Shown here one piece after another: positions 1-18,327 of a stretch of 64,000 nt of DNA. This stretch comes from an uncultured Lachnotalea sp. GTDB taxonomy: Bacteria; Bacillota; Clostridia; Lachnospirales; Lachnospiraceae. Position 1 is the stretch's first letter, and each line of letters starts with the position of its first letter. The position numbers were made by a program, and so were the translations under genes. Location: the NCBI GenBank assembly GCA_948470255.1, contig CAOKOS010000001.1, positions 57,382 to 121,381 of the forward strand. The letters run 5' to 3'. A model generated the notes under the pieces. That model was not told the origin of the DNA and made no database searches. It worked only from the letters and a program-made list of their open reading frames with translations.

Positions 1-2
1 AA

Positions 3-326
3 ATAGCTTTCCAAAAAGATATTATTAACCCTATTTTTGCTTTTACCATCAAGGATTTGCGGGGAACAGAGATTACAGGGACCAATACCATGTTCGAGCA
101 TATTTATGTGGACAATGCAGCGGCAGGAAGTACAAAAACAGTTTCCTTTACCCAGAAAATGAATCTGCAGGGAGGGGAATACCTGCTGTCGCTTGGATGC
201 ACCGGCTACAGCGGGGATGAATTTGAAGTTTACCACCGTCTGTATGATGTATGTAATATTACGGTGGTTTCTGATAAAAACTCAGTTGGTTTTTATGATA
301 TGGATTCTGAAATCAAAATTTCTTAG
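3..326 (+). CDS. Wzt-like ABC transporter ATPase, C-terminal carbohydrate-binding domain (5' partial)
   Basis: The frame is open from the window edge, so the ATG/TTG start in the ORF track is internal. The residues NPIFAFTIKDLRGTEITGTN followed by a beta-rich stretch (SLGCTGY..., VYHRLYDVCNITV) match the C-terminal domain of Wzt-type polysaccharide/teichoic-acid ABC exporters. That domain binds the modified non-reducing end of the finished glycan. The nucleotide-binding domain and the Wzm permease should lie just upstream of the window. The methyltransferase starts 12 bases after the stop, so the two are very probably one operon. Family known, substrate inferred; a generic beta-sandwich is the alternative. 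Confidence 0.72.
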   Translation: MAFQKDIINPIFAFTIKDLRGTEITGTNTMFEHIYVDNAAAGSTKTVSFTQKMNLQGGEYLLSLGCTGYSGDEFEVYHRLYDVCNITVVSDKNSVGFYDMDSEIKIS

Positions 327-337
327 GGAGCGGGAGT

Positions 338-1264
338 ATGGAGACAATCGGAAACATAAAAATTGACGATACTTTTTATTTAGGCAGGGACTTATATTCG
401 GACGGCGCCATAGAAGATGAACTGCTGGAAATTGTCCGCACATATGCGCCTTCGGAATATGAACGGGTTATCAGGGAAAGGAAGGATTGGGCAATTCTTT
501 ACCATCTTTCCGCCAACCGGGAAAATATCGTTGACTGGATGGAGAATGACAAGGAGGCTTCTGTACTGGAAGTGGGAGCCGGCTGTGGAGCCATTACGGG
601 GAAACTGGCAGAAAAATACGGGAAAGTGACCTGCATTGACTTATCCCGCAGGCGTTCTCTCATCAATGCATACCGCCATCGGGAAAAACCTAATATAGAA
701 ATCAAATTGGGAAATTATAAAGATGTTTCAGGGGCTTTAGACGAGAAGTACGATATCATTACTTTGATTGGCGTTTTTGAATATGCAGCCGGATATATGG
801 GGACAGAAAAACCCTATGAAGATTTTTTGATTTCTCTGAAGCGGCATTTAAAGCCAAATGGAAAGATCTTGATGGCCATTGAAAATAAATTTGGTTTAAA
901 ATACTGGGCAGGATGTGTGGAAGACCACAGGCAGACCATGTATGAAGGCATTGAAGGATATTGGAATACGAAAAATGTCCGGACTTTTACAAAAGAAGGA
1001 TTGGAACGTATTGTAAATAAAAGCGGGTGCGTGATAGAAAAGTTTTATTATCCTTATCCAGATTACAAGTTTCCGATGAGCATTTATTCCGATGAATATT
1101 TGCCGCAGATAGGGGAATTGAATAACAATTTTAACAATTTTGATGCCGCCAGGCTGCTGACATTTGATGAGGCGAAGGTTTTTGACACGGTCATTGAGGA
1201 AAATCAGTTTCCGGCCTTTTCCAATTCTTTTTTCATAATTGTGAAAGAAGGGAGTAAGCAATGA
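338..1264 (+). CDS. Class I SAM-dependent methyltransferase, candidate glycan chain-terminating methylase
   Basis: 308 residues. The SAM-binding motif I is clear (VLEVGAGCGAITGKLAEKYG, about residues 76-95), followed by an acidic motif II (VTCIDLS) and the motif IV region (YDIITLIGVFEYA). The C-terminal half carries LKPNGKILMAIENKFGLKYWAG, as in methyltransferases of surface-glycan clusters. It is sandwiched between a Wzt C-terminal domain and a kinase-like coiled-coil protein, the same three functions that Wzt plus WbdD supply in E. coli O8/O9a-type O-antigen export, where a methyl or methyl-phosphate cap stops chain growth. That role is inferred from order and domains. The start has a GGGAG Shine-Dalgarno sequence, and the 3' end overlaps the next gene by 4 bases (ATGA). 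Confidence 0.85.
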   Translation: METIGNIKIDDTFYLGRDLYSDGAIEDELLEIVRTYAPSEYERVIRERKDWAILYHLSANRENIVDWMENDKEASVLEVGAGCGAITGKLAEKYGKVTCIDLSRRRSLINAYRHREKPNIEIKLGNYKDVSGALDEKYDIITLIGVFEYAAGYMGTEKPYEDFLISLKRHLKPNGKILMAIENKFGLKYWAGCVEDHRQTMYEGIEGYWNTKNVRTFTKEGLERIVNKSGCVIEKFYYPYPDYKFPMSIYSDEYLPQIGELNNNFNNFDAARLLTFDEAKVFDTVIEENQFPAFSNSFFIIVKEGSKQ

Positions 1265-2589
1265 ATCCGATCTATTGCAAATATTCCAATGATAGAGCAG
1301 AAAGATTTCAGATCAAGACAACCATTTGGAAGGAAGAGGACGGGACACGTTTTGTATGGAAGTCCAGATGGAAGGAAGCGGCTGGACAACATGTGGATAA
1401 AATCTATGCCCACTATCTTCAGATGAAAGATAGTTTTGCAAAAGACGGCGTTTTTATACCGAATAGATGTGAAAAAACAAAAGATGGCGTAAAGCTTGAA
1501 TTTATAGAAGGGGAAACCTTTGAACAATATCTGGACAGCCTGTATTTAAGCGGCCGGTATGCCGAGCTTGTGGGGGAGATCAAAAAATACAAAGACGTGC
1601 TTTATTCTCTTCCTGATAATATTCCTTTTACCTATACAAAAGAATTTGATGAGGTATTTGGAAAAGAAACCCAGTTTTCAAATTGTATGTCTCTTAAAAT
1701 TTCCAATATTGATTTGATATTCTGCAATATTATTCCTCAGGGCAAATGGGTTATTATTGATTATGAGTGGATATTTGATTTTCCTGTACCCATTGATTTT
1801 ATCATTTACCGTGCAGTCCATTACTATTTATATGGCAGTACAAAGAGAAATGATTTACTGGATTTCCACATATTTAAACTTTTAGGGATATCGGAAGAAG
1901 ACCAGAGGATATACGGGGTCATGGAACAAAAGTTTCAGGAATATGTGGCCGGAGAAAAATGTACCATGTCTGTGCTGAAATCCACCATGTTGAAAGGCTA
2001 TTTAGATGCAAGGACGGAAATGCAGGATGTACGGACAGACTTTGTCCAGTTTTATATGGATAACGGGGCTGGATACAGTGAAGAGAACTCTTTAAAATAT
2101 ACTTATAGTTATTCAGATCAGGAGATCAAGGCCATGGTCTGCCTCCCGGAAGATGTGGTCAGCCTCCGGCTGGATCCTGCTTCGGCGCCAGTGATGGTAA
2201 AAGGGCTGGTGATCACCGTGGATGGGGAGAAAGTACAGCCGGACAGGACAAATGGACTGGAGGTTGATGGCGGAACTTATATTTTCAGAGGTCAAGACCC
2301 CCAGGTTCTGCTGTTCAATGTCAGAGGGAAAAAAGAAATAACTGTGCATTTTTCAGCAGTATCCTTGCTGGGGTCAAAATCAGAAGAAATGATATTGATG
2401 GCTGGTATCATGGAAGAGTTACAGAAAAAGTATGGGGACACTGAGCGGAAACGGGCGCACCTGATAAAGGAAAAGGAAGAATATGAGCGGCAATGCCGTG
2501 AAATGTCCCAGTATATCGAAGATATGCAAAACAGGTTGGTATGGCGTATTGGTTCAAAAATCAAAAGGATTTTTAAGGGAAAAGGATAG
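1261..2589 (+). CDS. Kinase-fold protein with C-terminal coiled coil, WbdD-kinase-like
   Basis: 442 residues. The N-terminal half looks like a small-molecule/glycan kinase fold: DGTRFVWKSRW as the Lys strand, NIDLIFCN at about residue 148-155 as a catalytic loop (D-x4-N), and WVIIDYEWIFD about ten residues later as the metal-binding D strand. A beta-rich middle follows. The last ~70 residues form a strongly charged coiled coil (ELQKKYGDTERKRAHL...) ending in an amphipathic basic segment (VWRIGSKIKRIFKGKG) suited to membrane or partner binding. In WbdD a coiled coil acts as a molecular ruler for chain length. Here methylase and kinase are separate overlapping genes. The family is uncertain because sequence similarity was judged from motifs only. 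Confidence 0.6.
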   Translation: MNPIYCKYSNDRAERFQIKTTIWKEEDGTRFVWKSRWKEAAGQHVDKIYAHYLQMKDSFAKDGVFIPNRCEKTKDGVKLEFIEGETFEQYLDSLYLSGRYAELVGEIKKYKDVLYSLPDNIPFTYTKEFDEVFGKETQFSNCMSLKISNIDLIFCNIIPQGKWVIIDYEWIFDFPVPIDFIIYRAVHYYLYGSTKRNDLLDFHIFKLLGISEEDQRIYGVMEQKFQEYVAGEKCTMSVLKSTMLKGYLDARTEMQDVRTDFVQFYMDNGAGYSEENSLKYTYSYSDQEIKAMVCLPEDVVSLRLDPASAPVMVKGLVITVDGEKVQPDRTNGLEVDGGTYIFRGQDPQVLLFNVRGKKEITVHFSAVSLLGSKSEEMILMAGIMEELQKKYGDTERKRAHLIKEKEEYERQCREMSQYIEDMQNRLVWRIGSKIKRIFKGKG

Positions 2590-2615
2590 TAAAAGACAGA
2601 TAAGGAGTGGCCCGC

Positions 2616-5600
2616 ATGTGGGATGAATGGCTGAATAGCTTAAATAAATTAATTGATGAGGCAGAGATAGTATCCTTTGATGTATTTGATACATTACTCT
2701 TTCGCATGGAAAAGATGCCGGAGGATGTGTTTGCATTGATGGAAAAGAATTTGGGAATCATTGGTTTTGCACAGTTTAGGCAGGAAAGCCAGAGAAAAGC
2801 CAGCATGGAGCTGGAGAGGGATAAGGGATATCCCCATGCGAATCTGGATGAGATCTATGGTTACATGGCGCTTCACGGGGAACGGGCGGGGGTCGACTGG
2901 AAACAGATCCAGGATTACGAGGTTCAGGTGGAGTTGGATTCTGTGTTTGCCAATGGGCAGATGTATCAGGTCTATCAATATGCCAGGCAGAAAAAAAAGC
3001 GGGTAATTGCAGTCAGCGATATGTATCTACAGAAAAAAGTTATTGTGCAGATATTGGAAAAATGTGGATATATGTTTGATGCTGTCTATATTTCGGCAGA
3101 TGAGAGAAAAACGAAATATGGCGATGGAAAACTTTTTAAATGGGTAGTTCAGCAGGAAAAGGCACAGCCGTCGCAAATTCTTCATATCGGCGATAATTAC
3201 AAATCAGATGTGGAAAATGCCAGGAAGCAAGGACTCAATAGTATTCATTATCAGAAAACAGAAAATGATGTAACAAGTCATGTCCCCTCATTTTTAGGCG
3301 GGATTGCAAACGCACTTTGCGGTGGGAAGGAAAATTTCTGGTATCGGCTGGGAGCCGCCCTTGGAGGTCCGTTATATCTGGAGCTTTATCTTTGGTTGAA
3401 AAAAATACAGGAAGCAGGAAATTATGATAAAATATTTTTTCTGGCCAGGGATGGATATGTTTTATACGAAATATATAGAAGTATGCCCTTTGTATCCTCC
3501 ACTATGGACATCCAGCCGTTGCAAAAAGGCATGGGGGAGGAAAAAGCAGAGTATTTTTACTTTTCAAGGAGGGCGCTTCTTCTGGCAGGAATTGAGCAAC
3601 TAGATGAGTCGGCGCTGGAACTGCTGCCGCCCCATACCCTTGGCCAGAGCCTGCAGGATGTGTTTGATTATCTGGGGGTTACAGACATTTGCGGGGGGAG
3701 CATTGGACGTGAGGGTTACAAAAGCCTTCGTGACGTCATAAAAAGCAGGGAAGACTGGAAAAAAATAAAAAATATTTTTAAATACAATGAAAAGGCATTT
3801 TTGGAAAGGTGTAAGGAAGAGCGGAAAAATGTCCTGGCATATTTAAAGAAAACTGGTTTTATGGACAGCAGGGCCTTGATATTTGACTGTGGATGGAACG
3901 GAAGCAGCCAGTATTTTCTGAAGAGGTTTTTAAAAACGGTAAAATATGAAAAAGAATACCAGTTTGCCTATGTGGGAATCTGCGATAGTGTAAAAAGCAG
4001 AAAACAGTTAAAGGGATTGAACTACAGCACATACTTGTTTGATTGTGATAAAAACCGGGACATGCAGGAGCAGGTCATGCATGCCGTGGTTTTGTTTGAA
4101 TTGTTTTTCAGCGCTCCCCATGAGTCTGTATGGTATTTTGATCAAAAAGGACCGGTGCTTGAGCCGGATGGGGACTATAACCATGAAAGTCAGGAACTGA
4201 CGGCAGGGATTAAGGACTTTGTCATCAAAAGCAAGCCTTTTGTAGAAAAATATGGAATTAAGATTGACAAAAAAGAGGCGGTGGCAGGGATTGTCCGCCT
4301 TGTAAATGCCCCTACCCTGGAAGAGGCGGTTATCATTGGAAATCTTCGGAATGTGGATGGGTTTGTAAAGGCAAAACGAGATGTTAAGTATATTGCAAAA
4401 ATTCCTTTGAAAGCATATTTAAAGAATCCCCAGACAGAGGTTTACTGGCTGGAAGGGCTTTTGAAGCGCCAGGATGTCAACGAATTTGTGAAGTGGAGGG
4501 TGGCTGGAAAGAATGGTGTGGATTATCTGGAATATAAAAGAAGACAAAGAAAGAAAGATGACTGGGAAGAGACTATCGTTGATTTAAAGCAAATTAAAAG
4601 AAAATATGGAAAAAAAGGGTATGCGCTTGTAAAAGGCCAGATGGAACGGGAGGCACAAGATACTTACAGCCAATGGATAAAAGAGAATGAAACCGGACAG
4701 GAATTTACGGAAAGGCTGGAATATAGCCCGCTTATTTCAGTGGTGATCCCAGTCTATAATGTGGAAGAAGTGCAGCTTCGGGAATGTATAGAGTCTGTGG
4801 AAGCGCAGATTTATGAAAACTGGGAGCTGTGTCTTGTGGATGATGCCTCCACCTGGCCGTCGGTGGGGGAAGTTTTAAAAGAATATGAAGGGAAAGAAAA
4901 AATCCATATCCGTTTCAGGAAGGAAAACGGCCATATTTCACGGGCAACCAATGACGGAATCGCCATGGCTTCCGGTGAATTTATTGCTTTTTCTGACTGC
5001 GATGATGTGCTTGCGCCAAATGCCCTTTATGAAATGGTAAAGCTTTTGAACGTGAATCCGGCCTATGATTTTATTTACAGCGACGAGGATAAGTTGACTG
5101 AGGATGGAAAACAGAGACATTCTCCATTTTTTAAGCCGGACTGGTCGCCAGATACTTTTATGGAATTGATGTACACCAATCATTTGGCAATTTATCGAAG
5201 GAGCCTGGTGGAGCGGACAGGAGGGCTGCGCAGCGAATTTAACGGGGCCCAGGACTATGACTTTACTCTGAGATTTATGGAATACAGCGACAATTCAAAA
5301 GTAGGGCATGTTTCAAAAGTACTTTATCATTGGAGAGAGAGGGGAGAGTCCATTGCTTCTAATCCTGAAGCAAAGCCTTATGCCTTGGAAGCTATGAAAA
5401 AAGCCAAAGAGGAAGCGCTTTTCCGGCGGGGGCTTTCAGGGGAAGTGCGCTATATCCCCGATATGTATCAATACCGTGTCGTCTACCACCCGAAAGAGAA
5501 TCCGCTTGTGTCTGTGATTATTCCATCGAAGGATAATGTGGAAGTATTGAAAAGGTGCATCCTGTCCATAAAGGAATATACAGAGTACACAAATTATGAG

Positions 5601-7142
5601 ATCGTCGTTGTGGATAATGGGAGTTCAGAAGAAAACAAAGCCCGGATAGAGGAAATTTGCAGACAGCAGGTGTGCCGCTATCTTTATAAAAAACAGTCCT
5701 TTAATTTCTCCGCCATGTGCAATCAGGGGGCAGCTGCCGCCAGTGGGGAATATCTGCTGTTTTTAAATGACGATACAGAGGTGTGTTCAAAAGACTGGAT
5801 GGAAATTCTGACTGGCCAGGCCTCGCTGAAGCATGTGGGAGCAGTTGGCGCGAAACTGCTTTATCCAAAAAGCCATAACATCCAGCATGCAGGAATTACC
5901 AATTTGGAAATTGGGCCTTCCCATGCCCTTTTGAAGGCAGACGACAGGATCATCCATTATTTTGGAAGAAACAGGATAGATTATAATTATCTGGCAGTGA
6001 CTGGCGCCTGCCTTATGGTAGCGAAGGATAAATTTGAGAAAGTAAGGGGATATGAAGAAAAGCTGCCAATTGCATACAATGACATTGACCTGTGTTTTAA
6101 GCTGTATGAAAATGGGTTTTATAATGTGATACGGAATGATGTTGTGTTATATCATTATGAATCCTTCAGCAGGGGAAGTGATGATAAGGACAAGGAGAAA
6201 CAAAAACGTTTGCAGGAAGAGAGGCGTTCTTTGTATGAGAGACATCCGGCGCTTGAAGGGCGGGATCCCTTTTATAATGTCAACCTAATGGGAAATGGCG
6301 TGGAATTCGGGTTGCGCGTAAAAAAGAAAGCAAATTTGGGTAAGCTGGAGCCTTTCGATGCTTCCAGAATTGTTGTTGGCGGTGATATCCACTTTTTTAT
6401 CGACCAGTTTACGCCAGATGAAATACTTCATGTACACGGCTGGGCTTATGAGAGAAATGGAAGACATGCGCCGTATACAAAAGTCTCTTTGGCTTTTTTA
6501 GGGAATGGAGAATATTCTTATGAGGTAGAAACAGAGCAGGTATTCCGTATGGACATTGCTAGGGCGCAGCGCCGCTTAAAAGGTACGCCTTTCTCCGGAT
6601 TTCAGTGTGATGTAGATACAGCCCAATTAAATCTTCAGAATAACGAATATAAAATAGGTTTCGTCCTGGATGGCGGAAAAAAGAAACGAAGGAGGATTAT
6701 TATTTTAGATTATGAACTGACAGGAGGAGGCGGGGAGATTGAAAAAGACAGGCTGTTTTTGTGGAAAGGGCAGGCTGAGATGCCAGATGGCATAAAGGCG
6801 AACATTGACAGCGTATCCATAAGCGAAACGGTTTTAGTTTCCGGCTGGGCATTTCTGCCTGGATGTGAAGGTAATCATCTCTGGGAACGTGCGGTGGTGT
6901 TGAAGGATGAGAGAGGGCAGATATGGGAGGCCCGGACAGACTGGAAGGCAAGGCCGGATTTGGCGGCGCTTTACGGAATGGGAAACAGCCTGATGGGAAG
7001 CGGGTTTTCCTGCGAGATTTTGGCGGATGTTTTAAAACAATACGGAAACTGCTTCCAAATCGGTATTGTAATGCGGCATAAAGAAACAGGGGAGAAACGG
7101 CTCCATTGGACAGAATGGGACGGGAGACAACTATGTTTTTAA
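2616..7142 (+). CDS. Giant fusion: HAD-like domain plus two GT2 glycosyltransferase domains
   Basis: ATG at 2616 is preferred over the GTG at 2607 in the ORF track because the AAGGAG Shine-Dalgarno covers 2602-2607 and gives 8-base spacing; this yields about 1508 residues. Order: HAD hydrolase fold (SFDVFDTLLFR near residue 21, IAVSDMY, GDNYKSDVENA); a helical region (KIFFLARDGYVLYE); GT2 domain 1 from about residue 706 (VSVVIPVYN-like start, LVDDAS, SDCDD); GT2 domain 2 from about residue 963 (VSVIIPSKDN, VVDNGSS, LNDDTE); then two beta-rich modules with an SGWAF motif. HAD plus paired GT2 proteins are common in Clostridia capsule and rhamnan-type clusters. It is probably cytoplasmic and builds successive linkages. 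The next gene overlaps its end by 10 bases. Confidence 0.88.
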   Translation: MWDEWLNSLNKLIDEAEIVSFDVFDTLLFRMEKMPEDVFALMEKNLGIIGFAQFRQESQRKASMELERDKGYPHANLDEIYGYMALHGERAGVDWKQIQDYEVQVELDSVFANGQMYQVYQYARQKKKRVIAVSDMYLQKKVIVQILEKCGYMFDAVYISADERKTKYGDGKLFKWVVQQEKAQPSQILHIGDNYKSDVENARKQGLNSIHYQKTENDVTSHVPSFLGGIANALCGGKENFWYRLGAALGGPLYLELYLWLKKIQEAGNYDKIFFLARDGYVLYEIYRSMPFVSSTMDIQPLQKGMGEEKAEYFYFSRRALLLAGIEQLDESALELLPPHTLGQSLQDVFDYLGVTDICGGSIGREGYKSLRDVIKSREDWKKIKNIFKYNEKAFLERCKEERKNVLAYLKKTGFMDSRALIFDCGWNGSSQYFLKRFLKTVKYEKEYQFAYVGICDSVKSRKQLKGLNYSTYLFDCDKNRDMQEQVMHAVVLFELFFSAPHESVWYFDQKGPVLEPDGDYNHESQELTAGIKDFVIKSKPFVEKYGIKIDKKEAVAGIVRLVNAPTLEEAVIIGNLRNVDGFVKAKRDVKYIAKIPLKAYLKNPQTEVYWLEGLLKRQDVNEFVKWRVAGKNGVDYLEYKRRQRKKDDWEETIVDLKQIKRKYGKKGYALVKGQMEREAQDTYSQWIKENETGQEFTERLEYSPLISVVIPVYNVEEVQLRECIESVEAQIYENWELCLVDDASTWPSVGEVLKEYEGKEKIHIRFRKENGHISRATNDGIAMASGEFIAFSDCDDVLAPNALYEMVKLLNVNPAYDFIYSDEDKLTEDGKQRHSPFFKPDWSPDTFMELMYTNHLAIYRRSLVERTGGLRSEFNGAQDYDFTLRFMEYSDNSKVGHVSKVLYHWRERGESIASNPEAKPYALEAMKKAKEEALFRRGLSGEVRYIPDMYQYRVVYHPKENPLVSVIIPSKDNVEVLKRCILSIKEYTEYTNYEIVVVDNGSSEENKARIEEICRQQVCRYLYKKQSFNFSAMCNQGAAAASGEYLLFLNDDTEVCSKDWMEILTGQASLKHVGAVGAKLLYPKSHNIQHAGITNLEIGPSHALLKADDRIIHYFGRNRIDYNYLAVTGACLMVAKDKFEKVRGYEEKLPIAYNDIDLCFKLYENGFYNVIRNDVVLYHYESFSRGSDDKDKEKQKRLQEERRSLYERHPALEGRDPFYNVNLMGNGVEFGLRVKKKANLGKLEPFDASRIVVGGDIHFFIDQFTPDEILHVHGWAYERNGRHAPYTKVSLAFLGNGEYSYEVETEQVFRMDIARAQRRLKGTPFSGFQCDVDTAQLNLQNNEYKIGFVLDGGKKKRRRIIILDYELTGGGGEIEKDRLFLWKGQAEMPDGIKANIDSVSISETVLVSGWAFLPGCEGNHLWERAVVLKDERGQIWEARTDWKARPDLAALYGMGNSLMGSGFSCEILADVLKQYGNCFQIGIVMRHKETGEKRLHWTEWDGRQLCF

Positions 7143-9604
7143 AGATATGGAATCAAATAGGAAAACGCCGGATCATTGTTTTTCTGCTGGCATTTGCTGC
7201 CAGTATTAGTATATGGGCTATGCCTATACGAGCGGTGAATGTGTGTATCGTTGTGGAATATGCCCAGGAATACCAGGATGATTCGGCCCAGATATTTTTT
7301 AATACAGGAAGGGGATTTGTACAGGAAGACAGCTGTGCCGCTGATATTGTTGAAAAAAAAGCAGAATTTTTGGTGAACCCAGAGTTTTTTTCCTGTGGAG
7401 AGATTCGTCTGGATCCGGGGAGCCGGGATGAGGTATATCAGCTGAGAGAAATCAGGATATATTCCCAGGTTTTTAAAAATAAAAAGACACTGCTGGCAAA
7501 AATCAGCGCAGAAGAGCTGGATACGCATGGAGTATTGCTGGGGGGGGGTAGAAAGGAAAGCGAAGGTTTCTATGCCATTCAGGATGACGCCATGGATGCT
7601 TCCATCCTCTTTGACGGTTTCCTGACGGGAAAATTCGGAAAGGCAGTACAAAATAACTGGCCGGTGAAAGCCTGCGCACAACTGGGAATCTGTGTTTTAT
7701 GTGTGGTGGCTTTAGCTTGGCTTTCCAGGGGGAAGAAAGCGGCGGGGGCGGCAGGGGCAATATCTGGTATGGTATTGCTGGTGTGTATCCTGGCGATATA
7801 CATTTTTTGCGGGCTTCCCGACAAATATTATATTCATGAAGAGGGACAGATCCAGATGCCAAAAGGCGTGGCCTCTTTTGAAACCGGAAAGAAAAACCTG
7901 GAAGGGATTTCCCTGGAATACGACGATATGGAGGCTTTGCAGGAAATAAATAAAATGCAGGTGTCTTGTAAAACGGGGGAAAAAACTTATACTAAGGATA
8001 TAACCGCATCGTCAATACCAGAAAACGGCGTTGTTACGATACTGTCTGACCAATTTAACACATTTTCGGGCGATACGTTGGAACTGGAGATATTATATGA
8101 CGGCAGAAAGGAAGAGGTGCCAGTTGCCGTTAATCTTTTGTACAGGAATGAGCTGTATCAATGGTTAATTCTCCTGACGTTTCTATGGGGGGCAGGTATG
8201 GCCGTCCTGGCTGTTTTCCATAAACGTTTAAAGTTGAAGGCAAAATGGGCCGTCTGTGGCATCTATATCATGCTTTTTCTATTTGCAGTGGGAAAGCTGT
8301 GGTATTATGGCGCCCATATTGGGCAGGCGCCGGATGAAAAAGCACATGTGGCTTATATCGCCTATCTGGAAGATACGGGAAAGGTGATTCCGCAGTTCGA
8401 TGAAATGAGGCTGTTTACAAAATTGGAACATCCTATTATTTATCAGGGAGGGGAAGAAGTTTACAATTTTGATTCCAGGCTGAATTATTTAGGACACCCG
8501 CCCGCATATTACCATATAATGAGGCTGGCCGGGGGAGTAAAGGTGAATGAGGATGGAAGTATTTTAGCTGACTACGGGAAACTGAGAGGCATGTCTTCTG
8601 CCCTTGTGCTGGCAGCCATGGTAATATGGTTTTATATTGGTTTTCAATACCTGGATAAGCAACACCCTCTTCAGCATTTACTATATGGAGCCAGTCTTGT
8701 CTGTCTGCCGATGACTTGCTTTGTGGGGGCGGGTGTGAATAACGATGCCTTAACTTTTTTAGGAGGAGCTGTGACTGCCGCCGGTATGCTGCGGTTTATA
8801 AAACGAAAAAGGGACTGGAAAACATACTGGCTCATTGCGGCTGGAGTGGCGGCAATGCTCCTGGGAAAAGTGACAGCAGGGGCAATGGTGGTTCTCGCCA
8901 TATGGGGATACTTATTGTGGGAACTTTGGACAAAGCGAAAGCCTAAAGAAATCTTTAAAAAAACATTCTGGCCCACTGTCCCGGTTTATTTATTCATAAT
9001 CCTGTATTTTATATTGGTGTATAAGCAGACAGGAAGTATTCAGCCAAGGTATCAGAGTATTGATTCTGAGGGATACCGGCTTTCAGGCTTTTATACAGAA
9101 TTCGGACAGCGTACAGTATATTCCATGATGGAATATGTAAAATACTTTTTTTCGAGGTTCTTATATATATGGTCTGGCTGGGACACATCAAGTTTCTGCA
9201 TCTATAAAAATACGATAACAGATATTTTGATTTGGCTGGTTCCTACCACACTTTGGCTGGTTCCGCTGACATTATTCAGGAAAAAAGCAGCAATGGATGG
9301 CGGAGAGAAAAAATTCTTCCAGATACTATACGCGGCGGCTATTGCGGTGTGCATGCTGCAATTTAAAAACGCCTATAATGGATTTTATTTTGAGAGCGGA
9401 TATCTGGGAGGCGCCCAGAGCAGATATTATTTATGTATTCTGGGATTTCTTTCTTATATATGGGCCAGAGTAAATATCCTGGCGTCTGAAACGGGACAAA
9501 ATGTAAGGAAATTGGTAACAGCGCTGTCGCTGGCGGCAGTGATTGTTTTAATCTATGGGGATTTTATATATTTCCTTATAAAGAACACAACTTTTTACTG
9601 TTAA
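7133..9604 (+). CDS. DUF2142-type polytopic membrane protein, GT-C-like
   Basis: ATG 7133 has GGGAG upstream at good spacing; the track's TTG at 7106 has none. About 823 residues. There is one TM helix at the N-terminus (IIVFLLAFAASISIWAM), an extracytoplasmic beta-rich domain to about residue 180, a second hydrophobic pair, another beta domain, then about ten TM helices. The motif GQAPDEKAHVAYIAYLEDTG matches the DUF2142 signature. Such proteins are thought to be lipid-linked-sugar GT-C transferases, acting outside the membrane. A run of nine G (7540-7548) encodes LLGGG and is in frame here; a slip would stop the protein before most of its membrane domain. Confidence 0.82.
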   Translation: MFLKIWNQIGKRRIIVFLLAFAASISIWAMPIRAVNVCIVVEYAQEYQDDSAQIFFNTGRGFVQEDSCAADIVEKKAEFLVNPEFFSCGEIRLDPGSRDEVYQLREIRIYSQVFKNKKTLLAKISAEELDTHGVLLGGGRKESEGFYAIQDDAMDASILFDGFLTGKFGKAVQNNWPVKACAQLGICVLCVVALAWLSRGKKAAGAAGAISGMVLLVCILAIYIFCGLPDKYYIHEEGQIQMPKGVASFETGKKNLEGISLEYDDMEALQEINKMQVSCKTGEKTYTKDITASSIPENGVVTILSDQFNTFSGDTLELEILYDGRKEEVPVAVNLLYRNELYQWLILLTFLWGAGMAVLAVFHKRLKLKAKWAVCGIYIMLFLFAVGKLWYYGAHIGQAPDEKAHVAYIAYLEDTGKVIPQFDEMRLFTKLEHPIIYQGGEEVYNFDSRLNYLGHPPAYYHIMRLAGGVKVNEDGSILADYGKLRGMSSALVLAAMVIWFYIGFQYLDKQHPLQHLLYGASLVCLPMTCFVGAGVNNDALTFLGGAVTAAGMLRFIKRKRDWKTYWLIAAGVAAMLLGKVTAGAMVVLAIWGYLLWELWTKRKPKEIFKKTFWPTVPVYLFIILYFILVYKQTGSIQPRYQSIDSEGYRLSGFYTEFGQRTVYSMMEYVKYFFSRFLYIWSGWDTSSFCIYKNTITDILIWLVPTTLWLVPLTLFRKKAAMDGGEKKFFQILYAAAIAVCMLQFKNAYNGFYFESGYLGGAQSRYYLCILGFLSYIWARVNILASETGQNVRKLVTALSLAAVIVLIYGDFIYFLIKNTTFYC
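7540..7548 (+). repeat. Poly-G tract, 9 G, in the DUF2142 gene
   Basis: Nine consecutive G inside the coding strand (LLGGG near residue 137). The frame is intact at this length. Candidate slippage site. Confidence 0.6.
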
Positions 9605-9642
9605 TTTGATTTTGTATTTATTTTATAATTGCAGAGGTATCC

Positions 9643-10683
9643 ATGAAGCTGATTATTCAAATTCCCTGTTATAACGAGGAAAAAACACTGGCCATTGCCC
9701 TGGATGCGCTTCCAAAACAAATTGAGGGCATTGACAAAATTGAATATTTGATTGTCAATGACGGCAGTAAAGATAAAACCGTGCAGGTGGCCAGGGACTG
9801 GGGAGTCCACTATGTAGTAAATTTCAAAAAAAACAAGGGGCTTGCCAAGGGGTTTATGGCAGGGATAGATGCCTGTCTCAGAAATGGAGCGGATATTATT
9901 GTCAATACGGATGCGGATAATCAATACTGTGCAGAAGATATTGAAAAGCTGGTGCGGCCGCTCCTTGAAGGAAAAACGGATATTGTCATAGGCGCTAGGC
10001 CCATTGACCAGACAGAACATTTTTCCTTTCTTAAAAAAAAGCTTCAGCACTTGGGGAGTTACGTGGTGCGTAAGGCTTCCAAAAGCAATATTCCGGATGC
10101 GCCCAGCGGCTTTCGGGCTTACAGCCGGGAGGCTGCTATGCGGCTGAATGTGGTCAATGAGTATACGTATACATTAGAAACCATCGTCCAGGCCGGAAGG
10201 AGCAAGATTGCCATGGAGTCGGTTCCTGTACGGACCAATGAAGAGCTTCGGCCGTCCCGCCTATTTAACAGTATGTTCGGATATGTGAAGAAGTCCATAG
10301 TGACAATTTTCCGGGCCTTTATGATGTACAAGCCCATGAAATTTTTTACTATTGTCGGAAGCGTGATTTTTTTGTTGGGAGCGGCCCTTGGCGTACGGTT
10401 TTTAGTATATTGGTTTATGGGAATGGGGGGTGGCCATGTCCAGTCCCTGATTCTGTGCAGTACGCTTTTATTGCTGGGATTTCAGACGATTGTGATTGGT
10501 TTTCTGGCAGATGTGATTGCCGCCAATAGAAAGCTTTTAGAAGATGTACAGTATCATGTGAGAGAAATGAATTATGACGGCGTAAAGAGACGCACTGGTG
10601 AAGGGATGAATGGAGAAGAGGAGTTTGGAAAAAAAAATTCCGGAACAAGAGGTACAGAGACAAAGAAAACAGGGAAAGAATAG
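9643..10683 (+). CDS. Dolichol/undecaprenyl-phosphate sugar transferase-type GT2 with C-terminal membrane helices
   Basis: 346 residues. The N-terminus is a DPM1/GtrB-like GT2 (IIQIPCYNEEKTLAIAL, LIVNDGSKDKT, NTDADNQY, APSGFRAYSREAAMRL). Two or more TM helices follow from about residue 230 (FFTIVGSVIFLLGAALGV, LILCSTLLLLGFQTIVIG), then a basic tail. It probably transfers a sugar from a nucleotide donor to undecaprenyl phosphate at the cytoplasmic face, feeding a GT-C transferase such as its DUF2142 neighbour. There is an AGAGG Shine-Dalgarno at 9632-9636; a TATAAT sits at 9624-9629 but with only a poor -35. The 3' end overlaps the next gene by 74 bases. Confidence 0.88.
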   Translation: MKLIIQIPCYNEEKTLAIALDALPKQIEGIDKIEYLIVNDGSKDKTVQVARDWGVHYVVNFKKNKGLAKGFMAGIDACLRNGADIIVNTDADNQYCAEDIEKLVRPLLEGKTDIVIGARPIDQTEHFSFLKKKLQHLGSYVVRKASKSNIPDAPSGFRAYSREAAMRLNVVNEYTYTLETIVQAGRSKIAMESVPVRTNEELRPSRLFNSMFGYVKKSIVTIFRAFMMYKPMKFFTIVGSVIFLLGAALGVRFLVYWFMGMGGGHVQSLILCSTLLLLGFQTIVIGFLADVIAANRKLLEDVQYHVREMNYDGVKRRTGEGMNGEEEFGKKNSGTRGTETKKTGKE

Positions 10684-11617
10684 CTGGAAAAAAACGGTCA
10701 TAAAGGCTGCCGGGCTGTTTTTGGGGCTTTTAATCCTCTGGTTTATGGTGAAGGATATCATCGCCCATTGGGCGGATATTGTTCCATACCTGGCCAATAT
10801 GAACCTCCCCCTATTTCTTCTGTCAATCATGGTTTACGGAATCGCTTTTTTATTTACCGGATACAACTGGAGCTGGCTTTTGTGGAAAATGGAGAAAGGG
10901 CCTGGCAGGAGAGAGTATCTGAATGTTCATATGGTAAGCGCCCTGGCTCGCTATATCCCGGGCGGAATCTGGAGCGTTGTGGGAAAAGCTTATTTATGTA
11001 ACAGGGAGGGTGTTACGGCTCAAGCAGCCACAGCCAGCATTATTCTGGAATATGTATTCCAGATTATTTCCAGCGGACTGTTTTTTGTGGCGCTAGTCCC
11101 CTTTTTATTTCAAAGCGGGGGGGGCTGGCTGATACTTGTCTGCCTTTTGGCGGTTGTGGCAGTTTTGCTGGTTCTGCCCTTATGTACCAACTGTGGAATC
11201 AGGCTGCTGGCCAGGATATTAAAAAAGGGCTGTGGCGATATTTGTGTGCAGAGGGGGGTTGTGTATCAGGCTTTTTTCCGGTATGCAGGGGCGTGGCTGG
11301 TGACCGGGGCCGGGCTGATTGTGCTTGTATCGGCTTTTTCGGATATCAACGCCATGGAGGGGATATACCTGGTATTTTCCTATCCTGTATCCTGGGTTGT
11401 AGGGTTCTTAAGTCCGTCTCCCAACGGCATGGGGATCCGGGAAGGGATTTTACAGATACTTTTGGGGGAGAGACAGGCAAGCCAGCTGGTGCTGCTGATT
11501 GTGGTGACCACAAGAATCTGGACGATTTTCGGCGAAGCAGCGGCGTTTTTAAGTTTTAAGGCATATTATTTGGCCACAGGGAGAAAAGGAAAAGATGCTG
11601 GAATTTCTGAATCATAA
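10610..11617 (+). CDS. LPG synthase-type/UPF0104 flippase-like integral membrane protein
   Basis: 335 residues with about eight TM helices. The central stretch YIPGGIWSVVGKAYLCNREGV and the later FLSPSPNGMGIREGILQILLG are hallmarks of the lysylphosphatidylglycerol synthase transmembrane/UPF0104 (AglD-like) family, often found beside polyprenyl-phosphate sugar transferases. A role in moving or using lipid-linked sugars is an inference. The start lies 74 bases inside the preceding GT2 gene but has a GAAGGG Shine-Dalgarno at 10600-10605, so the long overlap looks real. An eight-G run (11117-11124, SGGGW) lies in a loop between TM helices. The stop overlaps the next gene by 23 bases. Confidence 0.85.
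   Translation: MEKRSLEKKIPEQEVQRQRKQGKNSWKKTVIKAAGLFLGLLILWFMVKDIIAHWADIVPYLANMNLPLFLLSIMVYGIAFLFTGYNWSWLLWKMEKGPGRREYLNVHMVSALARYIPGGIWSVVGKAYLCNREGVTAQAATASIILEYVFQIISSGLFFVALVPFLFQSGGGWLILVCLLAVVAVLLVLPLCTNCGIRLLARILKKGCGDICVQRGVVYQAFFRYAGAWLVTGAGLIVLVSAFSDINAMEGIYLVFSYPVSWVVGFLSPSPNGMGIREGILQILLGERQASQLVLLIVVTTRIWTIFGEAAAFLSFKAYYLATGRKGKDAGISES
11117..11124 (+). repeat. Poly-G tract, 8 G, in the UPF0104-like gene
   Basis: Eight G in the coding strand between two membrane helices. In frame at this length. Confidence 0.5.
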
Positions 11618-12590
11618 AAAAGTGCTTTTTATTACGACAAAAAATCTGGATTATATCAGGAACAGCCAGGAGCTTCGTCTGATTCATGCCCAGGCAGATT
11701 CCTATGATGTCATTGGTTCTTATGAAAAAAGCTATATAAAACGTTTTTTATCCGTATACAGAAAACTATTATGGAGAAAAGTGGGACAGTATGACCTGGT
11801 TTTTGTGGGTTTTGCACCGCAGCTTGTGGTTCCGCTTTTTCGGAAACTAAAAAAACGGGAGCTGGCCATTGATTTTTTTATTTCCATGTATGATACTTTG
11901 GTATGTGACAGAAGGAAATTTAAAGAGAAAAGCCTGGCGGCCCGTTTTTTCAAATGGCTGGACAAAAAGACCTTGCTTAAAGCAGATTATATTGTCACCG
12001 ATACAAAATCCCATGGGGCATATTTTACAGAAGAATTTGGCGCAGATATAAACAAAGAATATACATTGTACCTGGAAGCGGATCCTCTCCTTTATTATCC
12101 GCGGGAGCAGGAAAAGAACAGTGGAATAAAGGACAAATTTGTGGTATTATATTTTGGAAGTATCCTTCCGCTTCAGGGGGTGTCTGTGATTCTGGAGGCA
12201 ATCGGACGTCTGCAAATGAGAAAAGACATCTTTTTTTATATGGTGGGACCATTGAGCCGGGAGATAGGAAGGCCGGATAATCCCAATGTAGAGTATATAT
12301 CCTGGCTTTCCCAGGAGGCGTTGGCTGATAAGATTGCTGAGGCAGATTTATGCCTGGCAGGACATTTCCACGGAAGTATTGCGAAAGCAAGAAGGACAAT
12401 TCCGGGCAAAGCTTATATTTATGCAGCTATGAAAAAGCCTATGGTACTGGGAGACAACGAAGCCAACAGGGAGCTTTATGAGGAAAAAGACGGCGAAGTT
12501 TATTATGTCGAAATGGGAAATCCGAAACTGCTGGCAGCAGTGATTGCTGAACTTGCAGACAGATGGGAAGAACAAAGAGACGGGGAATAA
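11595..12590 (+). CDS. GT-B fold glycosyltransferase (GT1/GT4-like)
   Basis: 331 residues. The C-terminal half has the nucleotide-sugar binding Rossmann domain expected of GT-B enzymes: FVVLYFGSILPLQGVSVILEA, FYMVGPLSRE, VEYISWLSQEALADKIAEADLCLAG and an acceptor/donor E region (NREL). No signal peptide and no membrane segment are visible, so it is cytoplasmic or peripheral. The start has AAAGGA 5 bases upstream and lies within the previous gene. The sugar and acceptor cannot be told. It is followed at once by UDP-glucose dehydrogenase, so a uronic acid donor is possible. Confidence 0.8.
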   Translation: MLEFLNHKKVLFITTKNLDYIRNSQELRLIHAQADSYDVIGSYEKSYIKRFLSVYRKLLWRKVGQYDLVFVGFAPQLVVPLFRKLKKRELAIDFFISMYDTLVCDRRKFKEKSLAARFFKWLDKKTLLKADYIVTDTKSHGAYFTEEFGADINKEYTLYLEADPLLYYPREQEKNSGIKDKFVVLYFGSILPLQGVSVILEAIGRLQMRKDIFFYMVGPLSREIGRPDNPNVEYISWLSQEALADKIAEADLCLAGHFHGSIAKARRTIPGKAYIYAAMKKPMVLGDNEANRELYEEKDGEVYYVEMGNPKLLAAVIAELADRWEEQRDGE

Positions 12591-12592
12591 AT

Positions 12593-13891
12593 ATGAAAAT
12601 AGCAGTAGCAGGCACGGGATATGTGGGGCTGGTGACAGGCGTTTGCCTGGCGGAATACGGACACCTGGTGCATTGCATGGATATTGATGAGCGAAAAATC
12701 CAGATGATGCAACAAGGGGTATCCCCCATTTATGAAGAAGGCTTGTCTGAACTCATGAGAAAGAACCAGGAGAGGCTTTTTTTTACCACTGATTATGAAA
12801 AAGGCTGTAAGGATGCGGAAGTGGTGTTTATCGGCGTTGGGACGCCGGAGAAGCGGGACGGTTCCGCAAACCTGGCTTATGTTTATGAGGCGGCCAGGCA
12901 GATTGCCAGGACAGTGGAGAGGGACTGTGTGGTGGTGGTAAAGTCGACAGTGCCCATTGGCACAAATGACAAGATTGAGAAGCTGATACAGAAGGTGAAA
13001 AAAGCGCCTGTGAAAATCGCAGTGGCTTCCAACCCGGAATTTCTGGCACAAGGAACGGCGGTACGGGATACCCTTCATGCTTCTAGGATTGTAATTGGCG
13101 TGGAAGATGAATTTGCAAGATCTGTTATGTTGCAAGTTTATGAAGGTTTTGACGCGCCGAAACTGGTGACCAACAGGAAAAGCGCAGAGATGATTAAGTA
13201 TGCCTCCAATGATTTTCTGGCCCTTAAAATCTCTTATATCAATGAGATTGCCAACCTTTGCGAGCTGGTGGGGGCGGACATTGAGGATGTCACTGCCGGA
13301 ATGGGATTTGACACAAGAATCGGGAATAAATTTTTGAAAGCTGGAATCGGTTATGGAGGTTCCTGCTTTCCGAAAGATACAAAAGCGCTTCACTGGCTGG
13401 CAAATTCTTATGATTATGAGATGAAAACCATTAAGGCCGCCATTGAAGTCAATGAAAATCAAAAATTAAAGATGGTAAAGAAGGCGCGGAAGTATTACGA
13501 AGATTTTACAGGAATTACGGTGGCGGCGCTGGGGCTCACCTTTAAGCCGGGGACTGATGACCTGCGGGAAGCGCCGTCTTTGGTAAATATTCCGATTTTT
13601 CTGGAAGAGGGAGCGTTGATCCGCGCCTGGGATCCAGTGGGGGAAAAAAATTACAGGAAATTATATCCTTCCGAAATCTGCTATTGCCAGAAGATTGAGG
13701 AAGCTTTGGAGGGGGCCGATCTTTGCCTGATTTTTACTGAATGGAGGGAAATACAGGAAATTGAGCCGGAAGTCTTTGCAAAACAAATGAAAAAGCCGAT
13801 AATTATAGACGGGAGAAACTGTTACCCGCCGGAAAATTTTAAAAACAGCGGGATTGTTTACGAGAGTATGGGAAGAGAAACTGTTTGCTAA
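12593..13891 (+). CDS. ugd: UDP-glucose 6-dehydrogenase
   Basis: ATG 12593 is chosen: ACGGGGA ends six bases upstream, and the protein then begins MKIAVAGTGYVGLVTGVCLA with the NAD motif GxGxxG at residues 7-12. 432 residues, normal for the family. The catalytic Cys is near residue 258 in GIGYGGSCFPKDTKAL, and the C-terminal domain carries GLTFKPGTDDLREAPS. It oxidises UDP-glucose to UDP-glucuronate with two NAD. It supplies a uronic acid donor for the glycans made by this locus. Start is 2 bases after the previous stop. Confidence 0.96.
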   Translation: MKIAVAGTGYVGLVTGVCLAEYGHLVHCMDIDERKIQMMQQGVSPIYEEGLSELMRKNQERLFFTTDYEKGCKDAEVVFIGVGTPEKRDGSANLAYVYEAARQIARTVERDCVVVVKSTVPIGTNDKIEKLIQKVKKAPVKIAVASNPEFLAQGTAVRDTLHASRIVIGVEDEFARSVMLQVYEGFDAPKLVTNRKSAEMIKYASNDFLALKISYINEIANLCELVGADIEDVTAGMGFDTRIGNKFLKAGIGYGGSCFPKDTKALHWLANSYDYEMKTIKAAIEVNENQKLKMVKKARKYYEDFTGITVAALGLTFKPGTDDLREAPSLVNIPIFLEEGALIRAWDPVGEKNYRKLYPSEICYCQKIEEALEGADLCLIFTEWREIQEIEPEVFAKQMKKPIIIDGRNCYPPENFKNSGIVYESMGRETVC

Positions 13892-13930
13892 GTGACAGAT
13901 GGAATGACAGATTAGAGAAGAGGGATTTAA

Positions 13931-16249
13931 ATGAAACAGATGAAGAGAAAAACAGCGTTGCTTTTGGCGGTTGTCATGCTGTGGTGCACATGGCTTTCAG
14001 GAAGTGTGCCTGTCACAGCCGTAGAGGAAATTCCCCATGTGGAAAGCGCTGCAGGGCATCCAGGGGAAAATGTCCCGGGAACTGAGGGAACAGGCACAGA
14101 AGAAGAAACAGAGAGTGCAGAGGAGACAGAAACTGTAACGGAGCCAGAGACAGCAGAAGAAACAGAGGGGGAAAGCGAAACAGAAAGCTCCGAAGAAACA
14201 GAAGAAGCGAAGGAAACAGAAAGTGAAGGCCCGGAGGAAACAACGGGGACGGAAGGCGATATGGAAACGCCTGAGGAGACAGAATCCGGGGAAGAGGCGG
14301 AAAGCGAAACAGATGAGGCGGCCGCGGAACTCTATGGCGCGGGGAAGCCTTCCATATCTTATAGCGTACATATGCAGACCTATGGCTGGCTGCCTGAAAG
14401 CGTAGACGGCGTAGAAAATGGAAAACCTGGAAAAGGAAAACGTCTGGAGGCCATAAAACTTAGTGTGTCCGGTGTGCCGGGGCTGGGAGTGTCTTATCAG
14501 GTTTACCGCGACGACTATAAATGGCATATTGGCCAGGATGGTTCGGAAGCAGGAACCATTGGTATGGCAAAACGGGTAGAGGCAGTCAAAATGTCCCTTA
14601 CCGGAACAGCGGCAGGACAGTATGATATCTATTACCGCGTGTATGTGAATGGCCATGGGTGGCTAGATTGGGCAAAAAATGGTACAGAGGCAGGCTTGGA
14701 TTCTTCCTGGAATAAAAGTATTGAAGCTGTTCAAGTCCTTGTAAAAGCAAAAGGAAGCGCCGCTCCCGGCCCCATGTCCAGGCCCTATTTAAAGGGCCAG
14801 CCGGAAGCAGAGTATCCCAATACCCATATCAATACCGGAAACAAAATCACAGATATAATCGCCATAGCGAAAACCCAGGTGGGATATTATAAGCCGGGGG
14901 ATATGCCGACGAAATACGGAACCTGGTATAACGATTATGTCAATGCCGACGGCAGCTATTATCCTTCAGCGCCCTGGTGCGCTATGTTTGTCAGCTGGTG
15001 TGCGGGACAGGCACGTATTTCCGGCAGCGTGTTCCGGATGCATGCATCTACGGTTAATATGGCGATCTGGTATCAGAACAGCAATAACCCGGGGACATGG
15101 CATGATAGAGGTGGCTATACGCCGCAGGCCGGGGATTTGATCTTTTTTAAATTCGACTGGAATAATAATTATGTAAACCATGTGGGGATTGTAACTGGGG
15201 TGTCCGGCGGAATGGTTTATACAGTGGAAGGAAATACGTCCGACAGTGTAGCGGAGCGGAAATACTCTTTGGACAATGCTTATATTAAGGGGTATGCGAC
15301 TCCGGATTATGACGGAACAGGCGTGACAGAGCCGCCGGCTAATATGAAAATATCTTATTTAGCCAATGTGGAAGGGAAAGGCTGGATTGGCTGGAAGGCA
15401 GACGGAGCTTCAGCGGGAACAACAGGAAGTTCAAAGATGCTGAAGGCGCTGCGGGTTCAGGTTTCTAATAAAGATACTTCAGGAGGTGTCACATACCGGA
15501 CTTATATGCAGACTTATGGCTGGATGGATTGGGTAAAAGATGGAGCAGTTAGTGGTGTTGTCGACAGGGAGAAACGGATGGAGGCAGTGGAAATCAAGCT
15601 TACCGGAGATCTGGCGGCAAAATACGATGTATACTACCGTGTCCATAGCCAGACTTATGGGTGGCTGGATTGGGCTAAAAATGGAGAGACAGCTGGGACG
15701 GAAGGATATGCCAAGCGGGTGGAATCCATCGAAATCTGCCTGGTGCAAAAAGGAGGCGCTGCTCCCGGCAAGACGGCCAGGCCCTTTGTAAAAAAGCCGG
15801 CTGGCGTTTCTTACAGTACCCACTGTCAGACTTACGGGTGGCTTCCTTATACATCAAACGGCGTTATGAATGGAACCCAAGGGAAATCCAAACGCCTGGA
15901 AGGGATTAAGATAAGGCTGGACAATGCTTCCGGGAATATTGCTTATAGTACCCATGTGCAGACCTATGGCTGGCAGGGATGGTCATATAATGGGGCGTTA
16001 AGCGGAACAGAAGGGAAATCAAAGCGTTTGGAAGCAATCAAGATTGCTCTGTCGGGTGAAGCGAAGGAAAAGTATGATATTTATTATCGTGTCCACAGCC
16101 AGACCTATGGCTGGATGGGCTGGGCGAAGAACGGAGAAGCCGCCGGAACCAGCGGCCAGTCGAAACGCCTGGAGGCCATAGAGATTAAGCTGGTGCCAAA
16201 GGGAGGAAAAGCCCCTGGCAGTACTGTGGGGCATTATGTCTCAAAATAA
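13931..16249 (+). CDS. Secreted ChW-repeat protein with CHAP amidase/peptidase domain
   Basis: 772 residues. Signal peptide at 1-31 (MKQMKRKTALLLAVVMLWCTW...), a Glu/Thr-rich linker to about 135 that ends in ELYGAG, three ChW repeats, a CHAP domain at about 300-460, then six more ChW repeats. The CHAP catalytic Cys is in APWCAMFVSWC and the His in VNHVGIVTGV. It should cleave peptidoglycan peptide or amide bonds outside the cell; the ChW repeats are thought to anchor such proteins to the wall or its glycans. It starts 39 bases after ugd without a terminator between them, so it may be co-transcribed with glycan genes. Confidence 0.9.
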   Translation: MKQMKRKTALLLAVVMLWCTWLSGSVPVTAVEEIPHVESAAGHPGENVPGTEGTGTEEETESAEETETVTEPETAEETEGESETESSEETEEAKETESEGPEETTGTEGDMETPEETESGEEAESETDEAAAELYGAGKPSISYSVHMQTYGWLPESVDGVENGKPGKGKRLEAIKLSVSGVPGLGVSYQVYRDDYKWHIGQDGSEAGTIGMAKRVEAVKMSLTGTAAGQYDIYYRVYVNGHGWLDWAKNGTEAGLDSSWNKSIEAVQVLVKAKGSAAPGPMSRPYLKGQPEAEYPNTHINTGNKITDIIAIAKTQVGYYKPGDMPTKYGTWYNDYVNADGSYYPSAPWCAMFVSWCAGQARISGSVFRMHASTVNMAIWYQNSNNPGTWHDRGGYTPQAGDLIFFKFDWNNNYVNHVGIVTGVSGGMVYTVEGNTSDSVAERKYSLDNAYIKGYATPDYDGTGVTEPPANMKISYLANVEGKGWIGWKADGASAGTTGSSKMLKALRVQVSNKDTSGGVTYRTYMQTYGWMDWVKDGAVSGVVDREKRMEAVEIKLTGDLAAKYDVYYRVHSQTYGWLDWAKNGETAGTEGYAKRVESIEICLVQKGGAAPGKTARPFVKKPAGVSYSTHCQTYGWLPYTSNGVMNGTQGKSKRLEGIKIRLDNASGNIAYSTHVQTYGWQGWSYNGALSGTEGKSKRLEAIKIALSGEAKEKYDIYYRVHSQTYGWMGWAKNGEAAGTSGQSKRLEAIEIKLVPKGGKAPGSTVGHYVSK
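14092..14335 (+). repeat. Low-complexity acidic linker coding repeat (GAAACAGA-rich)
   Basis: Imperfect short repeats of gaaacagag/gaggaaaca encode a Glu/Thr/Ser linker between signal peptide and ChW repeats. Similar blocks lie at about 18475-18690 and 30520-30690 in two other ChW genes. Confidence 0.7.
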
Positions 16250-16274
16250 CCAGAGTCATAAATAAGGAGTGGAG

Positions 16275-18221: not shown

Positions 18222-18327
18222 CAAGTTGCCATCTGATTTAAGAATATCTTTTGGAAAAGAGACTGGATATTTGGGAAAAAGTAGTATATACTAAAAAATA
18301 GTATTATATGGGAAAAGAGGTAAAATT
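18222..18327 (+). promoter_or_regulatory. Intergenic leader upstream of the L,D-transpeptidase gene
   Basis: 106 bases, AT-rich. It holds TATACT (18287-18292) and a small inverted repeat ATACTA-A5-TAGTAT, with an AGAGG ribosome site near the end. No convincing -35 box was found, so a promoter here is only possible. Confidence 0.25.

Follow-up and report, generated by a model that had tools for sequence, protein, structure and literature searches.

A putative O7-type glycan chain terminator divided over two genes beside Wzm–Wzt in a Gram-positive bacterium

We analyzed a window of 64,000 nucleotides from an uncultured Lachnotalea sp. of the family Lachnospiraceae (assembly GCA_948470255.1, contig CAOKOS010000001.1, positions 57,382 to 121,381). 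With the upstream contig included, the gene order was as follows: RmlC, Wzm, Wzt, a methyltransferase (MT), a 442-aa protein, and a 1511-aa protein. Wzm was encoded at L002:11601-12431 and the complete Wzt (420 aa) at L002:12446-13708; the latter gene starts at G000:C1:56445, 937 nt before the window. The C-terminal part of Wzt, i.e., the last 107 of its 420 residues with most of the Wzt_C domain (PF14524, E 8e-31), was located at 3..326 on the + strand, as were all the window features given below. The MT gene (308 aa) occupied positions 338..1264, and the gene of the 442-aa protein, consisting of kinase, beta-sandwich, and coiled-coil parts, occupied positions 1261..2589. The stop codon of the former and the start codon of the latter share 4 nt (ATGA, 1261..1264), and the two genes are likely translationally coupled. 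The first-pass annotation of this DNA had named a Wzt-C domain, a methyltransferase, and a kinase-fold protein in succession; all three were found, and the gene layout agrees with its view that methylase, kinase, and coiled-coil ruler are divided between two genes adjoining Wzt-C. The next gene (2607..7142) encoded the 1511-aa protein with a HAD domain, a middle region, two GT2 domains, and a tail, as delineated with Pfam; this protein is likely the polymerase. An Rfam scan of positions 1-14000 of the window gave no match. Downstream of the glycan cluster, at 13931-20340, three consecutive ChW-repeat proteins with CHAP, transglutaminase, or L,D-transpeptidase domains were encoded.

The product of 338-1264 belonged to the class I SAM-dependent methyltransferases (Methyltransf_12, E 1.5e-11); its identification relied on Pfam, alignment, a structural model (pLDDT 85.5, pTM 0.88), and a 201-bit family-profile match to an ORF6-like protein of Pseudomonas. 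In the MT domain of WbdD, the chain terminator of Escherichia coli, the phosphate site is formed by H132, H133, and R203, of which His132-His133 are essential. The WbdD reference was the O9 protein of E. coli HS; compared with it, the window MT had generic class I similarity only, and H132-H133 were aligned with Glu148-Tyr149.

No Pfam or NCBIfam family matched the 442-aa protein, and nothing useful was obtained against PDB sequences with either a single query or a profile. An AlphaFold2 model was built from 12 related sequences (pLDDT 81). A kinase fold of this product, on which the first-pass reading had been made to stand or fall beforehand, was predicted by the model: its best PDB fold matches in the structure search were the APH(3')-Ia kinases (E 1e-5, probability 1.00), followed by PRPK and macrolide kinases. 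The kinase domain (approximately aa 1-240, 1261..1980) was delimited by the family alignment, the fold search, and hhalign comparison with O7-type kinases. The residues K34, H44, G84, catalytic D151 (1711-1713), N156 (1726-1728), and metal-binding D167 (1759-1761) were present in the window protein; among the relatives in the family alignment, K34, D151-x4-N156, and D167 were nearly invariant. A beta-sandwich resembling a carbohydrate-binding module (CBM-like domain; approximately aa 257-370, 2029..2370) was recognized by the strands of the model and by a profile match to residues 551-690 of the Pseudomonas ORF6-like protein (E 8e-4). The model ended in a single long helix (aa 376-441) with a heptad signal (p 0.004), including a coiled coil, the presumed ruler (approximately aa 376-424, 2386..2532), and a basic amphipathic C-terminal helix (2524..2577), which presumably contacts the membrane. 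The latter was characterized by a hydrophobic moment of 0.70 and a net charge of +6 (shuffle p 0.0085-0.02).

The complete Wzt matched PF14524 with E 8e-44. PDB matches were 2r5o (E 1.6e-6) and Aquifex aeolicus Wzt; 2r5o, listed as a putative ATP binding component, aligned with the Wzt-C sequence of O9. In the Wzt of A. aeolicus, Trp362 forms a lid over the methyl cap, and the W362L substitution abolishes binding (PMC9445017). Wzt Asn341 (window position 84) fell in the column of A. aeolicus Asn313 and Arg392 (window position 237) in the column of Trp362, while Thr occupied the column of His350. A binding pocket for the cap in Wzt-C, on which the first-pass reading also depended, was predicted from this alignment: the pocket Asn is kept, and Arg replaces the lid Trp.

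Of 98 related genomes, 32 encoded the kinase protein at the first threshold, counting a few partial or degenerate matches. It was also encoded on 11 contigs from a public genome collection and, in a sample of 399 genomes spanning the phylum, by 8, one of them the window genome. Outside the family of the window, L094 had a split pair beside Wzt, L099 a fused protein with a weak kinase match, L095 a split pair with neither a tail region nor a Wzt nearby, and L100 the CBM-like domain only. Wzm, Wzt with Wzt_C, MT, and kinase was the usual order among the relatives; since the same order beside Wzm-Wzt recurs in about 30 other genomes, the association of the three features is far beyond chance. The kinase also co-occurred with Wzt_C, a check that the first-pass annotation had proposed: 30 of the 32 kinase-positive relatives carried Wzt_C, while 2 had the kinase only, 8 Wzt_C only, and 58 neither (98 relatives; Fisher p 1e-15, a value that ignores phylogeny, along which the features are clustered).

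Three layouts were distinguished among the relatives: MT and kinase as separate genes, as in the window; MT-kinase fusions of about 560-850 aa (L056, L058, L060, L063); and kinases with two GT2 domains fused behind them, about 1035-1500 aa in length (L049, L051). Wherever a locus could be read at both ends, MT and kinase were almost always adjacent or fused. The split pair near Wzm-Wzt was also present in Murimonas intestini DSM 26524 (L038), a relative that can be cultured. The fused or split state changed at least five times on the MT-plus-kinase tree, the count of events being approximate because bootstrap support had not fully converged and long branches led to several rows. A single derived origin of the split form was rejected: the fused rows did not form one clade (AU p 9e-5; p 1e-12 against a fused clade with the long branches removed, several placements being uncertain). 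Thus, the claim of a distinct two-gene architecture stands as far as the split in the window is concerned, but the split is not fixed, and related genera have one protein of about 700 aa. MT-kinase pairs or fusions ending 1-16 residues after the kinase, i.e., lacking the CBM and coiled coil, were encoded at L037:7071-8750, L040:7083-8750, and L095:5904-7654. These loci had no Wzm-Wzt nearby, providing a natural contrast to the window type; their enzymes perhaps perform non-terminal decoration.

Several loci had arrangements of their own. A degenerate kinase that had lost the catalytic Asp was fused to two GT2 domains and had no adjoining MT (L071:460-3702). The proteins encoded at L070:8696-10099 (MT, CBM-like domain, coiled coil) and L100:6222-7664 contained the CBM-like domain and no kinase, and the Wzt beside them had Tyr at the pocket column; they are likely methyl-only terminators. 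At L145:4213-6890, the gene after an MT with similar end motifs encoded 546 aa comprising this CBM-like domain and a region that weakly matched APH kinases (E 0.005); it may represent a terminator with a different type of kinase. At L036:2912-4216, Wzt_C had a gene of its own following a short Wzt, and L099:2807-4761 may be alike. In two loci, a Wzt_C carrying Arg in the Trp362 column preceded a sulfotransferase (PF13469): L142:7232-8674 and 6054-7232, and L141:6224-7669 and 7660-11184, the sulfotransferase of the latter being continued by a coiled coil, a GT2, and a GT4 in one protein. A scan of viral contigs revealed no relative. Three unannotated faecal contigs labelled ‘Bacteriophage sp.’ (MT839147.1, MT836085.1, MT836982.1) encoded proteins 38-51% identical to a fused MT-kinase; these could be bacterial DNA or phage-borne genes.

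The closest described counterpart of the window pair came from Gram-negative bacteria. In ORF6 of Klebsiella pneumoniae O7 (MN173773.1), an MT and an APH-like kinase that had lacked annotation are joined to an Ig-like CBM, a coiled coil, and a pair of GT2 modules (PMC11231755, JBC 2024). Its APH/AmiN-like kinase domain comprises about 223 aa with the catalytic D441, the D441A substitution kills the kinase, and methyl-phosphate is produced from ATP and SAM and transferred to the terminal rhamnose (PMC11231755). The published ORF6 orthologues vary in their glycosyltransferases, and their survey named alpha- and gammaproteobacteria and cyanobacteria only (PMC11231755). Gram-negative stand-ins for ORF6-O7 were taken from a tblastn search of plasmid records: a 1457-aa protein of Pseudomonas asturiensis and a 649-aa protein of Citrobacter braakii, both encoded directly behind Wzm-Wzt. 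The former carried Y28, Y66, G91, G93, E112, and Y158 at the exact ORF6 numbers and D443 for D441 of ORF6; because the SAM-site numbering matches exactly and D443 lies near D441, it is in all likelihood an ORF6 orthologue.

With this Pseudomonas protein, which carries the SAM-site residues at the published numbers, in the alignment, Y20, Y55, G80, G82, D101, and Y149 of the window MT shared columns with Y28, Y66, G91, G93, E112, and Y158 of ORF6-O7, respectively, the column of E112 being occupied by D in the window. D151 of the window kinase aligned with Pseudomonas D443, and the kinase profile matched the O7-type kinases over 228 columns (hhalign 98.8%, E 5.6e-17). The GT2 pair of the 2607..7142 product matched GT2a and GT2b of L049, where they are fused behind the kinase (329/329 bits), and the GT2 pair of the Pseudomonas ORF6-like protein (L074; 197/166 bits), where they sit behind MT, kinase, CBM, and coiled coil in one polypeptide. 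From the matches of MT, kinase, CBM-like domain, and GT2, three consecutive genes of the window therefore appear to carry the modules of ORF6 in the order of ORF6. The nearest characterized system to the window pair thus appears to be O7 ORF6 of Klebsiella, a link that runs via a Gram-negative stand-in recognized by residue numbering. Full-length fused O7-like proteins also occur in Bacillota: L151 encoded one of 1555 aa, and that of L152 runs off the contig end.

The column of A. aeolicus Trp362 was then compared between Wzt sequences. Arg occupied it in the window, in O9, which has a methyl-phosphate cap, in both Gram-negative O7-like Wzt, and in 34 of 35 kinase-linked Gram-positive Wzt_C. 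Among the 15 rows labelled as non-kinase-linked, a single one had Arg, and its genome has the kinase on another contig. In L041 the kinase was present, and the Wzt was different, distant, and had no Arg. Wzt beside MT-only terminators lacked Arg here, having Tyr, Trp, or a different residue instead. In a separate set of 27 Wzt_C sampled from the phylum, Arg was found in three kinase-linked sequences (L151, L152, and L160, the last from a genome with the kinase on another contig), in L145, which has an MT and the weakly scoring APH-like gene, and in L141 and L142 with their sulfotransferase as the next gene. The remaining 21 had Tyr, Trp, Phe, Ile, or Leu; for 20 of them, one nearby gene each was scanned, revealing mostly MTs and neither a kinase nor a sulfotransferase. 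Arg was thus present in 3/3 kinase-linked sequences versus 3/24 others (p 0.007). On the tree, 80 of 81 rows agreed with the association of Arg and kinase, but the Arg state changed only three times, so that the independent evidence for the link is limited and an independent-pairs test had no power. A tentative link between the Wzt-C pocket residue and the charge of the cap may be proposed. In its full form, with Arg marking exporters of anionic caps (WbdD, O7-type, APH-like kinase, sulfotransferase) and Tyr, Trp, or other residues marking neutral caps, it is a possibility that we would rather bet against; the sulfotransferase grouping was assigned after the Arg had been seen.

We consider it probable that 338-1264 and 1261-2589 encode the two halves of a chain terminator of the O7-ORF6 type working as follows. 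The kinase half would be held at the membrane by its amphipathic tail, with the coiled coil setting the distance to the polymerase and thus the chain length. It would place a phosphate on the last sugar at the non-reducing end of the lipid-linked glycan, probably a rhamnose, and the MT half would then most likely methylate the terminal phosphate. The capped chain would not be extended further, and the C-terminal domain of Wzt would bind the cap through the Arg pocket and start export by Wzm-Wzt. The analysis shows the gene order, the domain make-up, predicted folds, conserved catalytic residues, O7-type homology, and co-occurrence with Wzt-C. We infer the enzyme activities, the methyl-phosphate product, the identity of the sugar, the function of the ruler, and the binding of the cap by Arg. 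The absence of His132-His133 speaks against methylation of a phosphate; yet the O7 enzyme methylates phosphate, and its Tyr158 aligns with Tyr149 of the window MT.

Modification of separate positions or of internal residues by kinase and MT, with a cap other than methyl-phosphate or one that is not the sole stop signal, is unlikely, though it is the strongest of the alternatives. The two genes are indeed separate in the window and many relatives, the His residues of the WbdD phosphate site are missing, and the pairs of L037, L040, and L095, having no CBM, coiled coil, or nearby Wzt, are doubtful as capping enzymes. Against it, MT and kinase adjoin or are fused in almost every locus readable at both ends, pairs beside Wzm-Wzt come with the coiled coil and Wzt_C, and the homologous O7 enzyme makes methyl-phosphate (PMC11231755). 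A cyclic or bare phosphate cap, the MT having another role, is less probable still. Such an end is known from the S-layer glycan of Clostridioides difficile SLCT-11, a Gram-positive, ABC-exported glycan whose non-reducing rhamnose carries a 2,3-cyclophosphate; the main text of that report assigns no capping gene and names no methyltransferase for the locus (PMC6254364), while the MT of the window is conserved and carries the SAM-site residues named for O7, with D for E112.

The first-pass annotation had likened the window pair to WbdD. In favour of a genuine WbdD that has been split in two in a Gram-positive are the identity and order of the functional modules and the length of about 700 aa of the fused relatives, close to the 708 aa of WbdD. 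As a statement of homology, the WbdD label was not borne out, and WbdD was rejected as a homologue: the kinase profile gave an hhalign probability of 0.3 and represents a different family, WbdD was missing from the best 50 structural matches of both the MT model and the kinase model, Glu-Tyr replaces His132-His133, and the CBM-like domain is foreign to WbdD. We give such an origin very little credence. The least credible alternative, an inactive kinase domain serving as a scaffold with a plain methyl cap, would be in keeping with the lost catalytic Asp of L071 and the kinase-less MT-CBM-coiled-coil protein beside another Wzt in L070, but the window retains K34, D151, N156, and D167, which hardly vary in the family, and the Arg of the Wzt pocket tracks the kinase.

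Phosphate-type chain termination and the quality control of export have been worked out in Gram-negative O antigens. The window appears to hold a well-preserved, split terminator of the O7 type in a Gram-positive; our literature search, which covered few subscription journals and is weak evidence in this respect, retrieved no description of such an MT-kinase pair in Gram-positives. If such terminators are common in gut Lachnospiraceae and other Bacillota, the outer end of many Gram-positive surface glycans would be defined and phosphorylated and their length set, both being relevant to contact with the host and phages. Members of the kinase family are also candidates for producing the phosphate end of the C. 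difficile SLCT-11 glycan, which is so far unexplained. The pocket residue of Wzt-C is a sequence feature that might predict cap chemistry in unstudied clusters. The O7-type reading would extend phosphate capping of ABC-exported glycans to a wide range of Gram-positives, and the Arg code, if true, predicts an undescribed class of sulfate-capped glycans of the L141 and L142 type.

Among the known systems, E. coli O9/O9a WbdD is similar in its working, with a kinase, an MT, a coiled coil, a membrane helix, and a cap read by Wzt-C. Unlike WbdD, the window system has a kinase unrelated by profile, an MT that lacks H132/H133, and a CBM-like domain between kinase and coiled coil; WbdD joins MT, kinase, and coiled coil in one gene, whereas the window has two genes with the ATGA overlap. 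The window system thus seems to resemble WbdD in operation while standing outside the WbdD family. With the SLCT-11 glycan of C. difficile it shares a Gram-positive host, ABC export, and a phosphorylated non-reducing rhamnose end, reported for SLCT-11 and proposed here; the reported 2,3-cyclophosphate differs from the cap proposed for the window (PMC6254364). In Geobacillus stearothermophilus, likewise Gram-positive and using Wzm-Wzt export, WsaE caps the exported glycan with an MT joined to two glycosyltransferases (PMC2943079); unlike the window system, it makes a 2-O-methyl cap and has no kinase (PMC2943079). The likeness to O7 ORF6 is the closest: the MT is a family member that carries the SAM-site residues named for ORF6 (D for E112), the APH-like kinase has its catalytic Asp in the same column, and an Ig-like CBM (a beta domain here), a coiled coil, a GT2-GT2 pair, and adjoining Wzm and Wzt are present in both, the Wzt of the stand-in orthologues carrying Wzt_C, as in the window. 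Unlike K. pneumoniae O7 ORF6, a single polypeptide with two C-terminal GT2 domains, the system described here belongs to a Gram-positive host and is encoded by three genes, for MT, kinase-CBM-coiled coil, and GT2-GT2.
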